DNA from: Bacillota bacterium
Lineage (GTDB): Bacteria; Bacillota; Clostridia; Peptostreptococcales; Anaerovoracaceae
Reading direction: 5' to 3'
NCBI GenBank assembly: GCA_017436705.1
Contig: JAFSCP010000018.1
Coordinates: 1-64,000, forward strand
Length of the DNA: 64,000 nucleotides
The translations under genes were made by a program, and so were the position numbers. Below the pieces are notes generated by a model, which was not told the origin of the DNA, made no database searches, and saw nothing but the letters and a program-made list of their open reading frames with translations. Shown piece after piece: positions 17,787 through 27,781 of this stretch; position 1 is the first letter of the stretch; each line of letters begins with the position of its first letter.

Positions 17787-19814
17787 TTAGTCGAGTAAAT
17801 CTTCAACTTTGTCAGCTACTTCGTCGATGAAATCTGCAACTTTTTCTGCTGCTTCTTCGATAGCATCTTCGATTTTTTCAAGAACAGGAGCTTCTAAAGT
17901 CTGCTTGATGCTGAGGCTGATTCTCTTTCTTTCTGTGTCGATTTCAAGAATCTTAGCATCTACAGTCTGTCCGATTGTAAGTTCTTCAGCGATATCAGTT
18001 ACTCTCTTGTGTGCAACTTCGGAAATGTGAACAAGACCGTCAAGACCTGGTTCTAATTCGATGAATGCACCGTATTCCTTAATCTGAACAACCTTACCGG
18101 ATACAACCTGTCCAACCTGGTAGTTTTCTTCGATAACTGTCCAAGGTTCTGGCTGAGTCTGCTTTAAACCTAAGGAAATCTTACCCTTTTCAGCGTTCAT
18201 GGAAAGGATCTTAACCTTAACTGTATCGCCGATTGCAAGAACTTCCTGTGGGTGTTTCAGCTTGCCCCAGGAAATTTCGGAAATATGTAATAATCCGTCA
18301 ATTCCGCCAAGGTCTACGAATGCGCCGTAGTCAGTAAATCTCATAACCTTACCTTCAACTACGTCGTCAACGTTTAAGCTGTTCCAGATTTCTTCAACTT
18401 TCTTCTGCTTTTCTTCTGCAAGGATAACCTTGTGGGAGAATACAGCTCTGCCTCTCTTCTGGTCAACTCTTGTAACTCTTACTGCAAGTTCCTTACCCAT
18501 GAATTCTTCAGCGTTTTCAACAAATTTGTCGGAAAGCTGGGAAAGTGGAATAAATCCGGATACTTCCTTGTAAGCTGCGATTACGCCGCCGTTAACCTGC
18601 TTAACAACTTTTACGTTAAGAATTGATTTATTTTCAAGAGCTTCATTGATTTCGTTCCAGTGTTCGTTTACTTCTAATTTCTTCTTGGAAAGTAAAATAA
18701 CGCCGTCGCCATCATCAGTCTTAATTACTTTAGCCTGAATTTCGTCGCCTTCTTTGAATAAATCTGCTAACTTCTGGTCTCCTTCCAGTGTTACTTCGTC
18801 TTTTGGAATAACTCCGTCCTTTTTGCATCCCATGTTAACGATGATTTCTTTTTCAGTAACCTGGTGTACCTTTCCGTTAACAGTTTCGCCGATTCTTGGT
18901 AATCTTAATGACTTTTCAATATCGTCCATTAAGTCCATCATGTTCATTTCGTTCATTTCAGTGATGTGTTCACTCATGGTAGCAATAACCTCCTTAATTA
19001 CGCATTCAGGCGTCGATGCACCTGCTGCAACTCCTATTTTATTATATTTTTTGATTTCATGCAATGGTAAATCTTCGATTTTTTCAACAAAAATTGAATT
19101 TTTGCATACTTTTTTTGCAATCTGATAAAGTTTATGTGTATTTGAACTGTCTCTTCCGCCGATTACCACCATGGCATCGCACTGTGCCGCCAGCTGGCTG
19201 CAGCTTTTCTGGCGCTGGGTAGTGGCATTGCAGATGGTATTTTTGGTTCTGAAGCCTGTACCATTCCGCTTCAGAACTTCTTCTACCTGGTCCAGAAGTT
19301 CCTTCTTGATCGTAGTCTGACACACCAGCAGATAATTATTGCCGCGCACATTCTCTGCTTCTTCTGCAGAATTTACAATTACTGCAGAATTTTCGCACCA
19401 GCCGTTAATGCCTTTTACTTCCGGATGATCCCTATCACCCACAATTATAATTTTTTTACCCTGGCTGTAGGCTTCTTCCACCAGCAGATGTATTTTTTTT
19501 ACGAAAGGACATGTTGCATCTACCACTCTTATGCCGGTCTCTTCCACCTTATCAAAAAAAGATTTCGCTTCTCCGTGAGACCGAACAATAACAACATCGC
19601 CATCTGCAGCTTCCTCCGGTCCGCTGATTATGCCCACTCCTCTGCGGGCCAGATCGTCGGTCACAAGGGTGTTGTGGATAAGAGGTCCGCATGTGTAAAT
19701 CCGGCCTTCAATTCCGCCCTCTTCCTTGCTTTTTATCTGTTCTTCAGTTTTTTCCATGGCCTGCTTCACACCGAAGCAAAAACCCGAATTTTCAGCTCTT
19801 ATAATTTCTTTCAT
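17787..19814 (-). CDS. ispH: Fusion of 4-hydroxy-3-methylbut-2-enyl diphosphate reductase (IspH) and ribosomal protein S1
   Basis: The protein has 675 residues. Residues 1-285 are IspH, the last enzyme of the MEP isoprenoid pathway. Its three Fe-S cysteines lie in NSGFCFGVKQAM (about 13), DATCPFVKKIH (about 101) and TICNATTQRQ (about 195). Residues 300-640 carry four S1 RNA-binding repeats (for example VEGKVMRFTDYGAFVDLGG and VSGKVVQIKEYGAFIELEPG). An acidic Ala/Glu/Asp-rich tail ends the chain. The fusion is well known in Clostridia. No frameshift or internal strong start was seen at the junction. It is followed by a good terminator and lies 2 bp downstream of rarA. Confidence 0.95.
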   Translation of the reverse strand: MKEIIRAENSGFCFGVKQAMEKTEEQIKSKEEGGIEGRIYTCGPLIHNTLVTDDLARRGVGIISGPEEAADGDVVIVRSHGEAKSFFDKVEETGIRVVDATCPFVKKIHLLVEEAYSQGKKIIIVGDRDHPEVKGINGWCENSAVIVNSAEEAENVRGNNYLLVCQTTIKKELLDQVEEVLKRNGTGFRTKNTICNATTQRQKSCSQLAAQCDAMVVIGGRDSSNTHKLYQIAKKVCKNSIFVEKIEDLPLHEIKKYNKIGVAAGASTPECVIKEVIATMSEHITEMNEMNMMDLMDDIEKSLRLPRIGETVNGKVHQVTEKEIIVNMGCKKDGVIPKDEVTLEGDQKLADLFKEGDEIQAKVIKTDDGDGVILLSKKKLEVNEHWNEINEALENKSILNVKVVKQVNGGVIAAYKEVSGFIPLSQLSDKFVENAEEFMGKELAVRVTRVDQKRGRAVFSHKVILAEEKQKKVEEIWNSLNVDDVVEGKVMRFTDYGAFVDLGGIDGLLHISEISWGKLKHPQEVLAIGDTVKVKILSMNAEKGKISLGLKQTQPEPWTVIEENYQVGQVVSGKVVQIKEYGAFIELEPGLDGLVHISEVAHKRVTDIAEELTIGQTVDAKILEIDTERKRISLSIKQTLEAPVLEKIEDAIEEAAEKVADFIDEVADKVEDLLD

Positions 19815-21691: not shown

Positions 21692-22222
21692 TTATTCAAT
21701 ACCGCAGAGATTTATCTCCTGCTTCAGGCGCTCAATAAATCCCGTAACTTTAGATACCTTCAGATTGCTGCATTCAAGCATGGTGCCCAGAGTATCCAGA
21801 TACATACGGCCATTTTCAGTGGTAATTCTTTTAAGTGAACGGATCAGACCTGCAATTGCTTTCTTTTCACTGCAATGCGGCTTAACCGGTATGTACGCAA
21901 GCTTCACATCCCTGAAATCTTCACTTATGTACACAGTATCTGCTGCCAGAACATACTCTTCCGGAAAGAGCAGATAATCCCGGCACATTTCTGTACACTC
22001 AATAATTTTCTCAGCGGCAGTCAGAATTCCGGCTGCACTTATATCGGACAGTGAAGATAATCTGATAAAACCTTCAGTTCTGTATATTCCTCTTATGCAG
22101 TCTCCCGACTTTGCAATATTCAAAGGCAGAATCGCAGGACAAATCCCGGAAATAACAGTTTCGTATTTTTTACGGTAAGCAAATCCTTTTTCATCCAGAT
22201 TGACTATTATCACATTACTCAT
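21692..22222 (-). CDS. DUF6382-like protein at the end of the Tad locus
   Basis: The protein has 176 residues, with no signal peptide or membrane helix. It resembles the N-terminal domain (DUF6382, named from memory) that in clostridial Tad loci usually precedes an FHA domain. Here the chain stops before any FHA domain. Visible features are FAYRKKYETVISG near the start, GFIRLSSLSDISAAGILTAA (about 52-71) and a helical C-terminus (GFIERLKQEINL). The ATG overlaps the stop of the TadE-like gene by 8 bp. It is probably a cytoplasmic partner of the Tad ATPase or pilus regulator; the function is unproven. Confidence 0.7.
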   Translation of the reverse strand: MSNVIIVNLDEKGFAYRKKYETVISGICPAILPLNIAKSGDCIRGIYRTEGFIRLSSLSDISAAGILTAAEKIIECTEMCRDYLLFPEEYVLAADTVYISEDFRDVKLAYIPVKPHCSEKKAIAGLIRSLKRITTENGRMYLDTLGTMLECSNLKVSKVTGFIERLKQEINLCGIE

Positions 22223-22865
22223 TATTCAGCCCTCCACAGATCTGACATGGAGTGTATCCTTTTCTTTCTGCATCTTCAGCCTCCATCTCCAGCCTGCATT
22301 CCTTACCTTCGTATTCCTGCCTTACATACCTGCACTCAGGGATATGATACCGTATCCCGAATTTTGGAAAAACCACCACAGTCCGCGAAATCCCGCTTTG
22401 CTGAAATTCTGCTTCAGTCAGAGGTCTGCCGCTTTGCCTGGTTCCTGTAAATCCTCTGGCAGTGAGTTCCTGCTCAAAACGTATCCGGCCGTTTATCCCC
22501 AGAGGGTGCTCTGCTGTAAAGTCAGCCCTGGTACTTATTCCTATCAGATCATCTATATTCCCGTCAGAATACAGATAGTCCAGATTTGTAACCTTAAATT
22601 GCGTGAGGCGTGGATTTTCTTCGTATATCCTTTCTTCAAAAATAAAATCATAAACAGGAATCACAGTTTCCGTCTGTTCCCAGTAGGATGCGAGGGAAAT
22701 TTCATGTAGTTCTTCCGCTGCCGCAAAGCATATGTTTTCGCATATTGCTATGATATTTACAATCAGTGCAAGGGCTGTAACACAGACAACAAACACAGGC
22801 AGAGTCAGTGCAGCCTCCACAATATAACTGCCTTTCCTGTCTCTAATATGTTTCTTCAAATTCAT
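22215..22865 (-). CDS. TadE-like pseudopilin with C-terminal YH-C-GYTPCxxC domain
   Basis: With the ATG at 22865 the protein has 216 residues; an in-frame ATG at 22886 also exists. The N-terminus is a TadE-type pilin segment: RKGSYIVEAALTLPVFV with Glu18 where pseudopilins carry their essential glutamate, then one long hydrophobic helix. Residues 55-165 form an outside domain. The tail (165-216) reads GIRYHIPECRYV ... AEDAERKGYTPCQIC. This is the His/Cys pattern (Y-H-x3-C, then G-Y-T-P-C-x2-C) seen in small Ada-like or nuclease-tail metal-binding modules. It lies in the Tad operon, overlapping both neighbours, and is probably a minor pilin. Confidence 0.8.
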   Translation of the reverse strand: MNLKKHIRDRKGSYIVEAALTLPVFVVCVTALALIVNIIAICENICFAAAEELHEISLASYWEQTETVIPVYDFIFEERIYEENPRLTQFKVTNLDYLYSDGNIDDLIGISTRADFTAEHPLGINGRIRFEQELTARGFTGTRQSGRPLTEAEFQQSGISRTVVVFPKFGIRYHIPECRYVRQEYEGKECRLEMEAEDAERKGYTPCQICGGLNNE

Positions 22866-24093
22866 GCTTCTTACCATTGACTTCAAAGGAAAAATTCAGT
22901 CCCCCGTAATAGTCTTCCAGCAGAAACCAGTCACAGCAAAAGTACTTCATATTAATCTGGATAAGATCCATAACTCTTTGAATTTTCAGGCTTTCAGGCA
23001 GTGACGCCACTAAAATTCTGAGATAATCTTCGTACTTTATGCCGCTCATATTCTGCGGTTTCACATATTTTTTACTTTCTTCACTGGTCGCATCACTGCC
23101 CGGCTCTGACTGCAGAGCATTTTCCAGAGACAAAGCCCAGTTTGTATCATCTTTAAAAACAGCCACAGACTGTCCGTCATAAAGAAGTTCCAGATCGTTC
23201 TTTGCCTCAAGGTACGCCCATGTTTCCAGAATCACAGCCTGTGTCGCAACAGCAGCCGGCCCCGGCGTAATCATTTCAGCAGCCGCCATAGCAGCTCCCG
23301 CTTTTTCCTCACAGGTATAAAGATAGGCCAGATTAAGACCGTTTCTCAATGCTAAAAGTGTGTTTTTCACATTCTTTACCGATTTTTCGTCATCCGGTCT
23401 GCCGCTGAGTATGTACTCAATCTCGCCTCTGAAATAAGTGTCACCCAGTTCTTCTCCATCCATGTAATCTCTGAAAAATCTGAAAATATATGTATCTATG
23501 GTCGCATTACCTGCAATGCCCGAAATTGACATATCTTCTTTAAGCTTGGAAACAAGCGATGATATACTCACACCTCCGCCTTTCCCACCTGACGGTAGTC
23601 CTTTCAGAATCCACTGGCTTGTTATTGCTCTGTCCGGACGGACTGTCACAGCAGCATCTGTGCTTTCATCAGCTGATTCTCTGAACACAGGGAGTGGAAC
23701 AGTTCCTGACATAACAGTTTCTCCTGCCTGCTTAATAAAAACCTCTTTATCTGTCAGCGACCAGCCGTCAAGGGAGCATAACGCACCGCTGTAATCAATG
23801 TAATCTTTGCTCTCAAAAGATATCCCGGCATAAAAGTCCAGCTTTTCCTCAACCAGAAAATCATTACCATAAAACGCGAACAATCCATACCGTTCCTTGA
23901 GAGTTATATCGTATTCTGCCAGGATGCTTCTTCCCCATAATCTGCCAAAACTCTCGCAGCAGCTGCTTATAGCCTGCTGTCCCGATGCCCACAATACCGC
24001 TGATACCATGATAAGAACTGCCGCAAAAGCCAGTGTCACAAATACCGTAAATGAACCTTTTTTACTGTGCAAATCCAGTTTCAAGTCTGTCAT
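22843..24093 (-). CDS. DUF5702-like Tad-locus protein
   Basis: The protein has 416 residues. The N-terminus KKGSFTVFVTLAFAAVLIMV is a single membrane segment followed by an outside part. The stretch SCCESFGRLWGRSILAEYD and LKERYGLFAFYG is typical of the clostridial Tad-associated family I know as DUF5702. The rest is a large domain with a helical, Ala-rich middle (about 265-300). The start overlaps the end of the 66-residue TadE-like gene by 32 bp, and the next TadE-like gene overlaps its 3' end. It is probably an assembly or minor pilus component displayed outside. Confidence 0.78.
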   Translation of the reverse strand: MTDLKLDLHSKKGSFTVFVTLAFAAVLIMVSAVLWASGQQAISSCCESFGRLWGRSILAEYDITLKERYGLFAFYGNDFLVEEKLDFYAGISFESKDYIDYSGALCSLDGWSLTDKEVFIKQAGETVMSGTVPLPVFRESADESTDAAVTVRPDRAITSQWILKGLPSGGKGGGVSISSLVSKLKEDMSISGIAGNATIDTYIFRFFRDYMDGEELGDTYFRGEIEYILSGRPDDEKSVKNVKNTLLALRNGLNLAYLYTCEEKAGAAMAAAEMITPGPAAVATQAVILETWAYLEAKNDLELLYDGQSVAVFKDDTNWALSLENALQSEPGSDATSEESKKYVKPQNMSGIKYEDYLRILVASLPESLKIQRVMDLIQINMKYFCCDWFLLEDYYGGLNFSFEVNGKKHEFEETY

Positions 24094-24262
24094 AAGTCCG
24101 TATATAAGTTACTTCACGGTTTTCATATATTCCGGCCAGTTCCTCTGCATTTGTTTCTGTCTGAGTCAGAAGTTCATTGTAAAATATCATCATCAGGCTT
24201 ATCAGACTGATCAGAATCATACACGTAAGAGGCATAACCAGCGTTGCTTCAACAAACTTCAC
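24062..24262 (-). CDS. Short TadE-like pseudopilin
   Basis: The protein has 66 residues and starts with GTG (AGGAG ribosome site 9 bp upstream). MKFVEATLVMPLTCMILISL is a class III pilin-like leader segment, with Glu5 followed by a hydrophobic helix to about residue 29. A short polar tail with YENREVTYIRTYDRLETG follows. It is much shorter than typical TadE but in its usual place between the Flp pilin and the large Tad-associated gene. The 3' end overlaps the next gene by 32 bp. Confidence 0.78.
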   Translation of the reverse strand: MKFVEATLVMPLTCMILISLISLMMIFYNELLTQTETNAEELAGIYENREVTYIRTYDRLETGFAQ

Positions 24263-24274
24263 AGCACCACGCTC

Positions 24275-24451
24275 CTAAAAACTTGCTGAATTCAGTGATC
24301 CAAAAGTATCATTGACAAAATCCGTAATCTGCGTTTTGAATATCAGTCCCAGGGCAACAGCAATGGCCACCAGAATTGCTACCTGAACCATTTCCATCCC
24401 CCGTTTTCCGGCAAACAACAAAGGCTGCCGCCTCTTTCCTCTTTTCTTCAT
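24275..24451 (-). CDS. Flp-type pilin (Flp1-like), 58 residues
   Basis: This is a short gene from the ATG at 24451 to the TAG at 24277-24275. It has an AGGAGGAGA-like ribosome site just upstream. The protein starts with a basic leader (MKKRGKRRQPLLFAGKRG) and continues GMEMVQVAILVAIAVALGLI, a hydrophobic pilin helix with Glu directly after G-M. It ends FVNDTFGSLNSASF. This is the clostridial Flp1-like pilin pattern. The leader would be cut by a TadV/CpaA-type prepilin peptidase, which is not in the window. Its position between TadC and TadE is the expected one. Confidence 0.85.
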   Translation of the reverse strand: MKKRGKRRQPLLFAGKRGMEMVQVAILVAIAVALGLIFKTQITDFVNDTFGSLNSASF

Positions 24452-24472: not shown

Positions 24473-24964
24473 TTATATCTGCAGCATTGCAGGAGCTGCC
24501 GTAATAATTATGAGCGCTATGAGCAGTATTCCCAGCGGAAAACTCATCTTGCTCTCTGCCAGCCTGATTTTTTCCAGTGCCAGCCGCTTCCTTTCAGCCC
24601 AAAGAGCATCGCTCTGCTCTGCGAGCTTCTCCCACAGGTCTGTTCCTTTATCACGGTTTTCCATAAGTATGTTCGCAACCCTTGTAAGCTCCTTAACTCC
24701 TGAGAGCCGGCTGTAACAATAAAACCCGGCAATGACGTTTTCTCCTGTTTTACAGCTGTTGTCATAAATACTGCAGACAGCTTCTGTAAAACTGTTTTTT
24801 CTTGCCTCCGGAAGGACAGTGTAGCTTCCCGCAATGCGGCAGAAAGCATCCTTCACTGCTGTACCGCTGTTCATAAGCAGAAGCAGCTGATTTATAAATC
24901 CCGGCAAAGCCATGATTATTTCTTCTTTTTGTTTTTTTACAGTCTTTTTTTCGTCAGATTTCAA
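24473..24964 (-). CDS. tadC: TadC-like type II/IV secretion F-domain protein
   Basis: The protein has 163 residues and probably starts with TTG behind AAAGGA; an ATG at 24913 is an alternative. The middle part (MALPGFINQLLLLMNSGTAV, GVKELTRVANILMENRDKGT, LWEKLAEQSDALWAERKRLA) is the conserved core of the T2SSF domain. One C-terminal membrane helix (FPLGILLIALIIITAAPAML) follows. It is shorter than Gram-negative TadC because the N-terminal membrane helices are missing, as is common in Clostridia. It overlaps the tadB-like gene by 11 bp and is an inner-membrane platform of the pilus. Confidence 0.83.
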   Translation of the reverse strand: MKSDEKKTVKKQKEEIIMALPGFINQLLLLMNSGTAVKDAFCRIAGSYTVLPEARKNSFTEAVCSIYDNSCKTGENVIAGFYCYSRLSGVKELTRVANILMENRDKGTDLWEKLAEQSDALWAERKRLALEKIRLAESKMSFPLGILLIALIIITAAPAMLQI

Positions 24965-25700
24965 TATTATTTATCCTTTCCATCATCACAACTGCAGCAG
25001 CCATAAGCCCCAGTGCAAAAGTCATAATCATCACTCCCTCCCTGGTTTCGGTCATGGGCTTCAGATAATCCGGTGCAATGATTTTCAGAAGCAAAATCAG
25101 TACAAATGGAGAACCCATCACAATCCTGCTTTCAAATCTTTTCTGAGCCATCAGCGTTTTCAGTTCTCTTTCAAGGTTTATTTTATCACCGATAATTGAA
25201 GTTGCCCTGTTTATAGCCTTTGGCAGATCACCCCCGGTTATCCTGCAGCTTTCGTAAACTGCCGCAAAATCAGCTGCATCTTCCAGCCCGCTTCTTTCAG
25301 CAAACTGACGCAATACCACTGAATCCTTTTCATTGCCTTCTTTTATCTGCCTGGTCATGTAATCCAGTTCTTTCATTATGTAATCATCCGGTCCGTACGT
25401 TGATTTCCAGAAATCAACAGATTCTTCAAGGGCCTGCCCCATTGTTCTTCCCGCCGATACTGACGAGGATACCGAGTAAAGCATATCCCTGAACTGCACA
25501 AGTCTCTGGCTACGCTTTTTTTCTATAACAGTTTTTTTATATACAGGAAAGAAAAAGACGAAGCCAGCTGTCAGTACAAGTCCGGCCAGCGGTTTCCCGT
25601 AAAACAGCAGACCCGTCAGCATTCCTGCACCTGCCGCACATGAAGCAAAAATCCTTATTTCCTTATCCGACAATGCCAGATTTTCTGAGCTTTTCCCCAT
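24954..25700 (-). CDS. tadB: TadB-like pilus assembly membrane protein
   Basis: The protein has 248 residues. Membrane segments lie at about 20-35 and 38-52 and near the C-terminus (about 196-240). Between them is a cytoplasmic T2SSF-type helical domain (FRDMLYSVSSSVSAGRTMGQ, ALEESVDFWKSTYG, SGLEDAADFAAVYESCRITG, KINLERELKTLMAQKRFESR). This is the TadB half of the TadB/TadC platform that the ATPase drives. It overlaps tadA by 38 bp and tadC by 11 bp, which suggests coupled translation. Confidence 0.88.
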   Translation of the reverse strand: MGKSSENLALSDKEIRIFASCAAGAGMLTGLLFYGKPLAGLVLTAGFVFFFPVYKKTVIEKKRSQRLVQFRDMLYSVSSSVSAGRTMGQALEESVDFWKSTYGPDDYIMKELDYMTRQIKEGNEKDSVVLRQFAERSGLEDAADFAAVYESCRITGGDLPKAINRATSIIGDKINLERELKTLMAQKRFESRIVMGSPFVLILLLKIIAPDYLKPMTETREGVMIMTFALGLMAAAVVMMERINNIEI

Positions 25701-26898
25701 ACTTTTCTCCTTTCAGTATAATTTTTCTGCTGTTTATAAGCTTATTACCGGTATATACAAGACTGCCGTTTCCACCGGCTGTCATCAGCGGATTCAACTC
25801 GAACCGGCCATTTTCATACCCGGCAATCTCCGTAATTTCAACGATTCTGCGTCTTCCATCCCCGAACTTTTCTATATGCACAATTATATCTATTCCTTCT
25901 GCAATCTGAGCCCGGACAGCATCGATATCAAGAGATTGTGCCATCAGATACATCGACTCCAATCTCCGCAGCATACCTGTTACAGAATTTCCGTGACCTG
26001 TGCTCATACTCCCTGAATGTCCTGTGTTCATTGCCTGAAGCATATCGGCCACTTCTGCCCCTCTTACCTCGCCCACAATGATTCTGTCAGGCCTCATTCT
26101 CAGACTGCTGCGTATGAGCTGGGACATTGAAACCTGTCCCTTACCTGATGCATTGCTGCTCCTGCATTCCATATGAACAATATTTTCTATTCCCGGAAGT
26201 TTCAGTTCTGCAGAATCTTCTATAACTATTACCCGTTCCTGCCGCGGCACTGAGTCTGCCAGAGTATTCAGCAGAGTAGTTTTCCCTGATGATGTCCCTC
26301 CGCTGACAAATATGTTATATCCGCATTCAACCAGAATTTCCAGCAAAAAAGCTGCATCTTCTGTCACCGTACCGTTGTTTATAAGGTCGGCCATCTTCAT
26401 GTACCGCTCTGAAAATTTACGGATGGTAAGAATGGGGCCATTGACTGCGACATTTTTATATACACCATTGACTCTGGAACCATCCGCAAGTCTGGCATCC
26501 ACAATAGGGTTCATTTCACTGATTTCTCTGTGCACATCTCCGGCCACATTTCTTATTACTTCTTCCAGTTCTTCTGCAGAATCAAAGCAGAACCTGTACT
26601 TTTCAATCTTTCCGCCCTTTTCCACAAAAATATTTTCAGGGCCGTTCACCATGATTTCTGTAACATTCTCATCATCTGCCAGCGGCTGAAGAATTCCCAG
26701 GCGACACCTCGTCTTGAAGAAAATTTTATTTATGCATTCCTCAGCTTCTTCATCATCAAGAACGCTGCACCTGGGGTCATCAAATACAGCCCGTACAATA
26801 ATCTCCATTGCCTGCTTATCATCCGGATTTTCAGCTGCGCTCAGGCTTTTTCTTGCAGAGGCAAGAATATCATTTATAAAAATAGCTTTGTTCATCAT
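25663..26898 (-). CDS. tadA: CpaF/TadA family secretion ATPase
   Basis: The start is at one of two tandem ATGs (26898/26895); a TTG at 26913 is also in frame. The protein has about 411 residues. The N-terminal domain contains LQPLADDENVTEIMVNGPEN. The catalytic domain has Walker A FVSGGTSSGKTTLLNTL (about 200), acidic and Walker B boxes in VIVIEDSAELKLPG and RPDRIIVGEVRGAE, and the His-box AMNTGHSGSMSTGHGN. It is the hexameric motor for Flp pilus assembly at the membrane. The gene order tadZ-A-B-C-flp-tadE is that of a compact Firmicute Tad locus. Confidence 0.95.
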   Translation of the reverse strand: MMNKAIFINDILASARKSLSAAENPDDKQAMEIIVRAVFDDPRCSVLDDEEAEECINKIFFKTRCRLGILQPLADDENVTEIMVNGPENIFVEKGGKIEKYRFCFDSAEELEEVIRNVAGDVHREISEMNPIVDARLADGSRVNGVYKNVAVNGPILTIRKFSERYMKMADLINNGTVTEDAAFLLEILVECGYNIFVSGGTSSGKTTLLNTLADSVPRQERVIVIEDSAELKLPGIENIVHMECRSSNASGKGQVSMSQLIRSSLRMRPDRIIVGEVRGAEVADMLQAMNTGHSGSMSTGHGNSVTGMLRRLESMYLMAQSLDIDAVRAQIAEGIDIIVHIEKFGDGRRRIVEITEIAGYENGRFELNPLMTAGGNGSLVYTGNKLINSRKIILKGEKYGEKLRKSGIVG

Positions 26899-27781
26899 CC
26901 AGTTCACTCTCAATCATTGTTATCAGATCCCTTACCGATCCGGCAAAAGCCTTATTCATTGAAATTTCAACGTTTTCGCCTATGCGGGAAAAGCTTTCGC
27001 TGTCCATCTGAATCTTAACAAAACGGCCATCAGCCATCCTGTATGGTGCCTTGTTAAGTACATAAAACTCCAGGCTTCCCCATTCTGTTTCATTTCTTGC
27101 CAGCTGTTCAAAATTCTCCGCTCTCCGGTCTCCATATGCTTCAACATTTATTGTTGCCTGGCAGGAAATACTTCTGTAATCCCTGCTGTTTCCCGCATCT
27201 GTTACAACCACACTGAATCCATTGTGTTTCAGATATTCATTCAGCTCCGGTACTGGTTTTTCAATAGCCAGCACCGTCACGCCGTACCTGTCCTCACAAA
27301 TGTATCTTTCAATATCCATATCCATCCCGTGGCTCAAAAAATATGTAAGCTCCCTGCCTCTGAACATATATGGTGCTGTCTCTGAATACATTGCTGCATC
27401 CCTGCCGTCGCCAATACTTACAAAGGCTGTCCTGCCGCCGGACCTTGCTGCAAGTATTCTGGCGATGGTAATACCCACAGCAGTACATCCGGCTCCTCCG
27501 GAGCAGCTGCGTACCACATATGTCCGCAAAGTTTCTTCCCCGCCCGGAAGGCATGCTCTGAACCTCTCCCCTGCAGCACCTGCAATCCCGAAAATCATCC
27601 GGCTTACAGGAAAAAACGCCTCCGCTGAATTATCATCTATAACAAAATCCGCATCATCTGAAAACATGCCCTGCTCTGACACAATAAACTCAATGCCTGA
27701 CACCAGCTCACTTATCCGACGCATCAGGTCAAGTCCATATTTTTCATCATTTACAGCAACGGCAATACGTATTTTTTTCAT
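26870..27781 (-). CDS. TadZ/CpaE-like protein with deviant Walker A
   Basis: The protein has 303 residues. The first 95 residues are a receiver-like domain (RIAVAVNDEKYGLDLMRRIS, ADFVIDD). The MinD/ParA-like part follows, with VVRSCSGGAGCTAVGITIAR where the P-loop should be; the usual K-G-G-x-G-K-[ST]-T signature is missing. Later parts are TAFVSIGDGRD and FSVVVTDAGN. TadZ proteins position the Tad machinery at the pole, and many have atypical P-loops. It is the first gene of the operon behind a consensus promoter, and its 3' end overlaps tadA. Confidence 0.8.
   Translation of the reverse strand: MKKIRIAVAVNDEKYGLDLMRRISELVSGIEFIVSEQGMFSDDADFVIDDNSAEAFFPVSRMIFGIAGAAGERFRACLPGGEETLRTYVVRSCSGGAGCTAVGITIARILAARSGGRTAFVSIGDGRDAAMYSETAPYMFRGRELTYFLSHGMDMDIERYICEDRYGVTVLAIEKPVPELNEYLKHNGFSVVVTDAGNSRDYRSISCQATINVEAYGDRRAENFEQLARNETEWGSLEFYVLNKAPYRMADGRFVKIQMDSESFSRIGENVEISMNKAFAGSVRDLITMIESELDDEQSYFYK

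Follow-up and report, generated by a model that had tools for sequence, protein, structure and literature searches.

A probable Ada-like module with an invariant His/Cys motif at the end of TadE-like minor pilins in clostridial Tad loci

To our knowledge, most receptors of Gram-positive Tad and competence pili have yet to be described. For com pili, according to one review, the DNA receptor has not been identified (PMC6370729). In Tad systems, minor pilins start pili, and one proposal is that they display variable domains at the tip (PMC12075869), although the TadE and TadF proteins of Micrococcus luteus have been suggested to act at the base (PMC4322843). The protein described here has a class III N-terminus, a tad-type locus and an extra domain on the minor pilin in common with TadE-like minor pilins and with the Kil tip minor pilins of Myxococcus (PMC12075869). 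It appears to differ from them in the kind of domain it carries: no zinc or Ada-like domain is known to be named in PMC12075869, and the word 'zinc' has no occurrence in its main text. The closest described counterpart of the extra domain is N-Ada (N-Ada 10; structures 1adn, 1u8b, 1wpk and 1zgw; family PF02805), in which Cys38 is the methyl acceptor (PMC10814553). Searches of an open-access library returned no title or abstract opening that mentions Tad pilins with an Ada-like module.

The window analysed here is a stretch of 64,000 nucleotides from contig JAFSCP010000018.1 of a Bacillota bacterium. The gene of interest lies on the minus strand, with its ATG at 22865 and its stop codon at 22217-22215, and the coding part at 22218-22865 translates into 216 amino acids. 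The initial annotation named no strand; we rejected the plus-strand frame of 22215-22865 as the pilin, since its translation differs and the minus strand encodes the pilin. The N-terminus carries the class III prepilin signature G12/S-Y-I-V-E17 followed by a hydrophobic stretch, with G12 and E17 nearly invariant in our alignment of 29 proteins (alignment A1); the predicted leader therefore comprises residues 1-12 (22830-22865), with the cut after G12 placing E17 at +5. In the whole-protein AlphaFold model (mean pLDDT 69.1), a helix spans residues 3-62, of which residues 13-62 (22680-22829) form the N-terminal helix beyond the predicted cut, and a beta-rich pilin domain follows at residues 87-137 (22455-22607). 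The Ada-like module occupies residues 161-212 (22230-22385), as judged from invariant His and Cys residues, the tail model, the fold search and profiles. Its predicted zinc ligands are H174 (22344-22346), C178 (22332-22334), C207 (22245-22247) and C210 (22236-22238), all on the minus strand. The initial annotation had described a TadE-like pseudopilin with a class III pilin N-terminus and a tail containing Y173-H174, C178, C190, C207 and C210; the N-terminal signature and the place of the gene inside a tad locus agree with the first part, and the minus-strand translation has every one of these residues where it was said to be. The Pfam TadE score is 14.7 bits, below the cut-off of 22.9. Taking sequence and neighbourhood together, we read the 216-aa protein as a TadE-like minor pilin of a Tad-pilus locus.

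That locus is compact and lies entirely on the minus strand. It begins with a putative TadZ-like protein (26870-27781), assigned by its position and general look and matching no Pfam family, which is followed by a TadA-like ATPase (25663-26913; PF00437 at E 5.9e-51, with the best NCBIfam match, TIGR03819 at E 1.3e-87, falling below its cut-off). Next come a TadB-like protein (24954-25700) and a TadC-like protein (24473-24964), which match PF00482 with 31.9 and 26.0 bits, respectively, against a cut-off of 25.2. A small ORF encoding 58 aa at the usual place for the major pilin (24275-24451) is a candidate Flp, assigned by look from its basic leader and hydrophobic stretch, and a short TadE-like protein of 66 aa (24062-24262) is named from its position in the locus, its PF07811 match (E 0.24) being below the cut-off. 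A DUF5702 protein with a pilin-like N-terminus (22843-24093; PF18960, E 1.9e-50), the companion of the minor pilin, and a DUF6382 protein (21692-22222; PF19909, E 1e-7) stand before and after the minor pilin gene, which overlaps them by 23 and 8 bases, respectively, as in a tight operon. The TadA-, TadB- and TadC-like genes and DUF5702 thus lie directly upstream of the minor pilin gene, making it a member of the tad locus. Elsewhere in the window, at 17787-19814 on the minus strand, what looks like an IspH-like enzyme is followed in one frame by several S1-like repeats, an arrangement usual in Clostridia.

A similarity search with the whole protein found relatives of the minor pilin in 31 of 61 genomes, including 28 of the 37 genomes of its own family. 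The residues H174, C178, C207 and C210 are invariant in all 29 proteins of alignment A1; one further relative, L027, was omitted from A1 for its masked letters and likewise retains the four residues. Ten of the 11 invariant columns of A1 fall in the tail, the best conserved part of the minor pilin. Position 190 is Cys in just 3 of the 16 closer rows of alignment A3, for which reason we rejected Cys190 as a ligand, and the conserved motif of the pilin tail is H-x3-C...C-x2-C, with C190 excluded. The metal-site-like pattern of the initial annotation therefore stands for four of its residues and fails for C190; with that exception, the variation of Cys and His among orthologues that it had named as grounds for abandoning the idea did not occur. 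A motif arising by chance was rejected in view of the relatives in 31 genomes and the invariance across 29 rows. The relatives in public genomes (20 loci) come mostly from uncultured Clostridia or Bacillota assemblies, several of them from ruminant guts.

We consider it very probable that the tail is Ada-like. When the window's tail alone was compared with Pfam at E up to 1, the sole family returned was Ada_Zn_binding (PF02805), at E 0.0055 and 17.1 bits; the whole protein scores 12.9 bits, and neither value reaches the gathering cut-off of 23 bits. Twenty of 32 tails match this family at E up to 1, and the tail of one MBL protein exceeds the cut-off with 35.6 bits; within the window's own genome, PF02805 has no match above cut-off. 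The profile search that had been proposed as a check thus gave the Ada family and no other, at a score below its threshold. Through related tails the connection can also be drawn from profiles: a profile of 15 secreted tails, from proteins other than the pilins, matches E. coli Ada (1adn) at E 1.2e-6, and a mixed profile of 32 tails matches it at E 3e-4. The profile of pilin tails by itself found no Ada in the PDB; it matches the secreted-tail profile with a probability of 99.3%.

The predicted fold points in the same direction. In a tail-only AlphaFold model (mean pLDDT 79.9), two strands are followed by a short helix, a further strand and another helix. Foldseek compared this model with 350,542 PDB chains and returned four matches at E up to 10, the top two being Ada, and the best of all was the N-Ada/DNA structure 1u8b (E 0.9, probability 0.82, TMq 0.71). 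Of the 10 chains aligned with VIA-align, the four with Z of at least 2 are each Ada, and 1u8b itself gives Z 5.6 with an rmsd of 2.3 over 53 residues. Against the Ada-like reading, the Foldseek E is 0.9, on a predicted model, and the Z is middling; the model of the whole protein had no Foldseek match at E <= 0.001 and no Ada among the 50 matches listed. The initial annotation had suggested structure prediction as a check and had allowed that the tail might turn out to belong to an unrelated fold; by the fold of the tail-only model, and by profile through related tails, its Ada-like identity was instead borne out.

In the alignment to Ada, the tail His falls on Cys38 and the three tail Cys fall on C42, C69 and C72. 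The pilin tail and N-Ada have in common the predicted fold, the order of elements and the spacing of the ligand pairs (x3 and x2), and the equivalents of C42, C69 and C72 are kept. They differ in that the pilin tail has His for Cys38, sits on a carrier predicted to be extracellular and often occurs in two tandem copies. The four-Cys ligand set of N-Ada, C-x3-C...C-x2-C, is accordingly replaced at its first place, which is His in 29 of 29 rows. Because the residue that matches the methyl acceptor is His, neither methyl transfer nor repair chemistry is to be expected of the tail, and we rejected a repair function, since this His is found in every aligned row. The module thus keeps the metal-site positions of Ada and loses the repair nucleophile.

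Far from being an oddity of this one protein, the tail is usual, and often doubled, on the Tad minor pilins of several families. In a set of 148 genomes from the order, 51 have a tail-profile match and 63 a DUF5702 match, with both present in 44. The tail is not peculiar to this gene, as the initial annotation had suggested checking: 43 of the 63 genomes with DUF5702 have a tail gene no more than 3.5 kb from it, and the other 20 have no DUF5702-linked tail. Both the tail and DUF5702 occur in each of the 25 own-family genomes listed as matching. Several families of one order thus have Tad minor pilins that commonly end in an Ada-like, predicted zinc-binding module without the repair nucleophile. 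A class-wide census, which is not sorted by carrier protein, gave a match at 1e-5 in 77 of 291 genomes.

The module also extends beyond the pilins, which makes the feature more general than the view from a single gene. Of the 63 tail genes in the order, 20 lie away from DUF5702, and 18 of these were scanned with Pfam, two short fragments (L112 and L115) being outside the scan. Five carry Endonuclea_NS_2, three SNase, three Lactamase_B and two FN3 or choline-binding repeats, and five have no clear carrier family; nuclease-type or MBL carriers account for 11 of the 20. One of the MBL proteins resembles the C-terminal part of ComEC (TIGR00361 at E 1.4e-47, below its cut-off). The earlier remark that such modules end secreted nucleases therefore holds within the same order. 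The tails of secreted nucleases and MBL proteins (L093, L094, L096, L098-L100, L102 and L114) have the same C-terminal H-x3-C...C-x2-C module as the pilins, to which the profile match above connects them, but they sit on an enzyme or repeat protein rather than a pilin, and the five Endonuclea_NS_2 tails are more basic. In the SNase-type tails L105, L106, L112 and L113, the His and the C-x2-C are kept, while Asp and an additional His occupy the second Cys position, possibly another variant of the metal site; L105 and L106, with this Cys replaced, are omitted from alignments A5 and A6. The window's own genome encodes a second tail protein (L031:2932-3462, contig C32), in which a secretion- or signal-like start and a fibronectin type III (FN3) domain precede the tail. 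Some genomes at class level hold many copies of the module, with eight matches in G189, and there are frames with three modules, of approximately 500 aa in G278 and approximately 480 aa in G251.

Two tandem modules are present in 20 of 30 whole-protein relatives, a count that includes the window protein among the relatives. Both f6 proteins examined (n=2) have two modules, and the f2 proteins examined have one. In the window's group, which has a single module, the front half prefers the module-1 profile and the back half the module-2 profile in 9 of 9 rows, although rows of one clade are not independent events. In leave-one-out controls, true module-1 halves preferred module 1 in 40 of 40 cases, and true module-2 halves preferred module 2 in 38 of 40. 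Since module-2-like back halves are also seen in five of six f2 pilins and in secreted tails, what matters most is that the front half prefers module 1. In a tree restricted to the pilin part and built from 47 of 53 distinct tail-bearing pilins (L009, L027, L053, L091, L118 and L119 were omitted), a branch (95/78) separates off the 15 single-module rows of the window's group, whose neighbours within a branch of 100/99 are two-module rows. The deeper part of the tree is weakened by long branches and by midpoint rooting. We therefore take the window's single module to be a hybrid, with a module-1 front and a module-2 back, in a clade that appears nested among two-module proteins. The simplest account would be that, in the ancestor of the group, a deletion between tandem copies joined one half of each to make a single complete module. 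All four ligands are retained after this fusion, so selection seems to act on at least one site. The opposite course, duplication of one module into two within the family, fits badly with a tree that places the single-module rows together in one clade (95/78) among two-module rows.

We propose that the module serves as a zinc-stabilised binding knob. The minor pilin would be cut after Gly12 by prepilin peptidase, for which one Peptidase_A24 gene is found elsewhere in the genome, its N-terminal helix would insert it into the pilus tip or a base complex, and the Ada-like module would be left exposed at its far end. There H174, C178, C207 and C210 would bind zinc, the His at the place of the nucleophile keeping the zinc site and removing methyl transfer. 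With the site kept and the transfer gone, the module may work as a rigid binding knob. That the tail is both Ada-like and has a binding role of some kind seems to us somewhat probable; DNA in particular as the ligand is a tentative proposal. Such a conserved, compact and expressible module at the end of a minor pilin is a direct target for finding a ligand.

Three points would make extracellular DNA the single likeliest ligand: the domain of Ada is DNA-binding (PMC10814553), the tail also occurs on nucleases and on a ComEC-like protein (11 of the 20 carriers above are nuclease-type or MBL), and transformation of M. luteus requires Tad genes (PMC4322843; reviewed in PMC6370729). The Tad pilus would then catch DNA for uptake through ComEA and ComEC, both of which the genome encodes, with the knob making the contact; 1u8b, the best match of the tail, is itself a DNA complex. 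The charge of the tail is less favourable to a DNA receptor. The window's tail has a net charge of -1, and single-module tails of its family average +1.4 against +7.2 for the five Endonuclea_NS_2 tails, a comparison of small groups of unequal size made without statistics. In addition, a PilT-family operon in the same genome could serve uptake, and the tail also ends FN3 and choline-binding proteins, so that we regard a DNA-catching pilus as unlikely. Those last carriers would suit a pilus made adhesive by a module whose ligand lies on a cell surface, in the cell wall or in mucus; adhesion is a frequent role of Tad pili (PMC10934763), and several of the hosts are gut or rumen assemblies. Nucleases are nevertheless the commonest carriers of the tail outside the pilus, and adhesion seems to us quite doubtful.

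The linkage to DUF5702 in 43 of 63 genomes and the strong conservation of the tail relative to the rest of the protein could also reflect a structural part, with a zinc-locked knob stabilising the minor pilin or holding it to DUF5702 and the other minor pilins in a tip or base complex, and the suggestion that TadE/F may act at the base (PMC4322843) is in keeping with this. We think such a role possible, if tentative, given that the same module ends unrelated secreted proteins that have no pilus partner and that a linked tail is absent from 20 of the 63 genomes with DUF5702. Cysteines that form extracellular disulphides and bind no metal could be imagined in a protein predicted to lie outside the membrane, with four cysteines in the window's tail; yet just three of them are conserved, and these three and an invariant His fall on Ada's four ligand positions, which makes this very improbable. 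To return to DNA, a broader claim would be that a zinc module in common with Ada's DNA-contacting domain, usually tandem, is the DNA receptor of clostridial Tad pili in bacteria whose secreted nucleases and ComEC-like enzymes bear this tail too, one extracellular DNA-handling module being common to capture, digestion and uptake. We rate this as rather unlikely; if true, it would tie secreted nucleases and MBL proteins to the pilus through one shared domain that lacks the repair nucleophile of Ada.

The Tad locus is not the sole type IV filament system of the genome, an idea that we rejected on finding the PilT-family operon and a second divergent ATPase. The former (L149:5370-9184, contig C44) is a separate type IV filament operon of unusual composition, in which four small ORFs resembling pilins accompany a PilT-family ATPase and a PilC/GspF-like protein. 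The latter is a divergent secretion-type ATPase of 463 aa (L150:404-3800, contig C5). Its neighbours are two membrane proteins, a small protein is encoded upstream, and the whole may be another Tad-like or secretion locus in reduced form.
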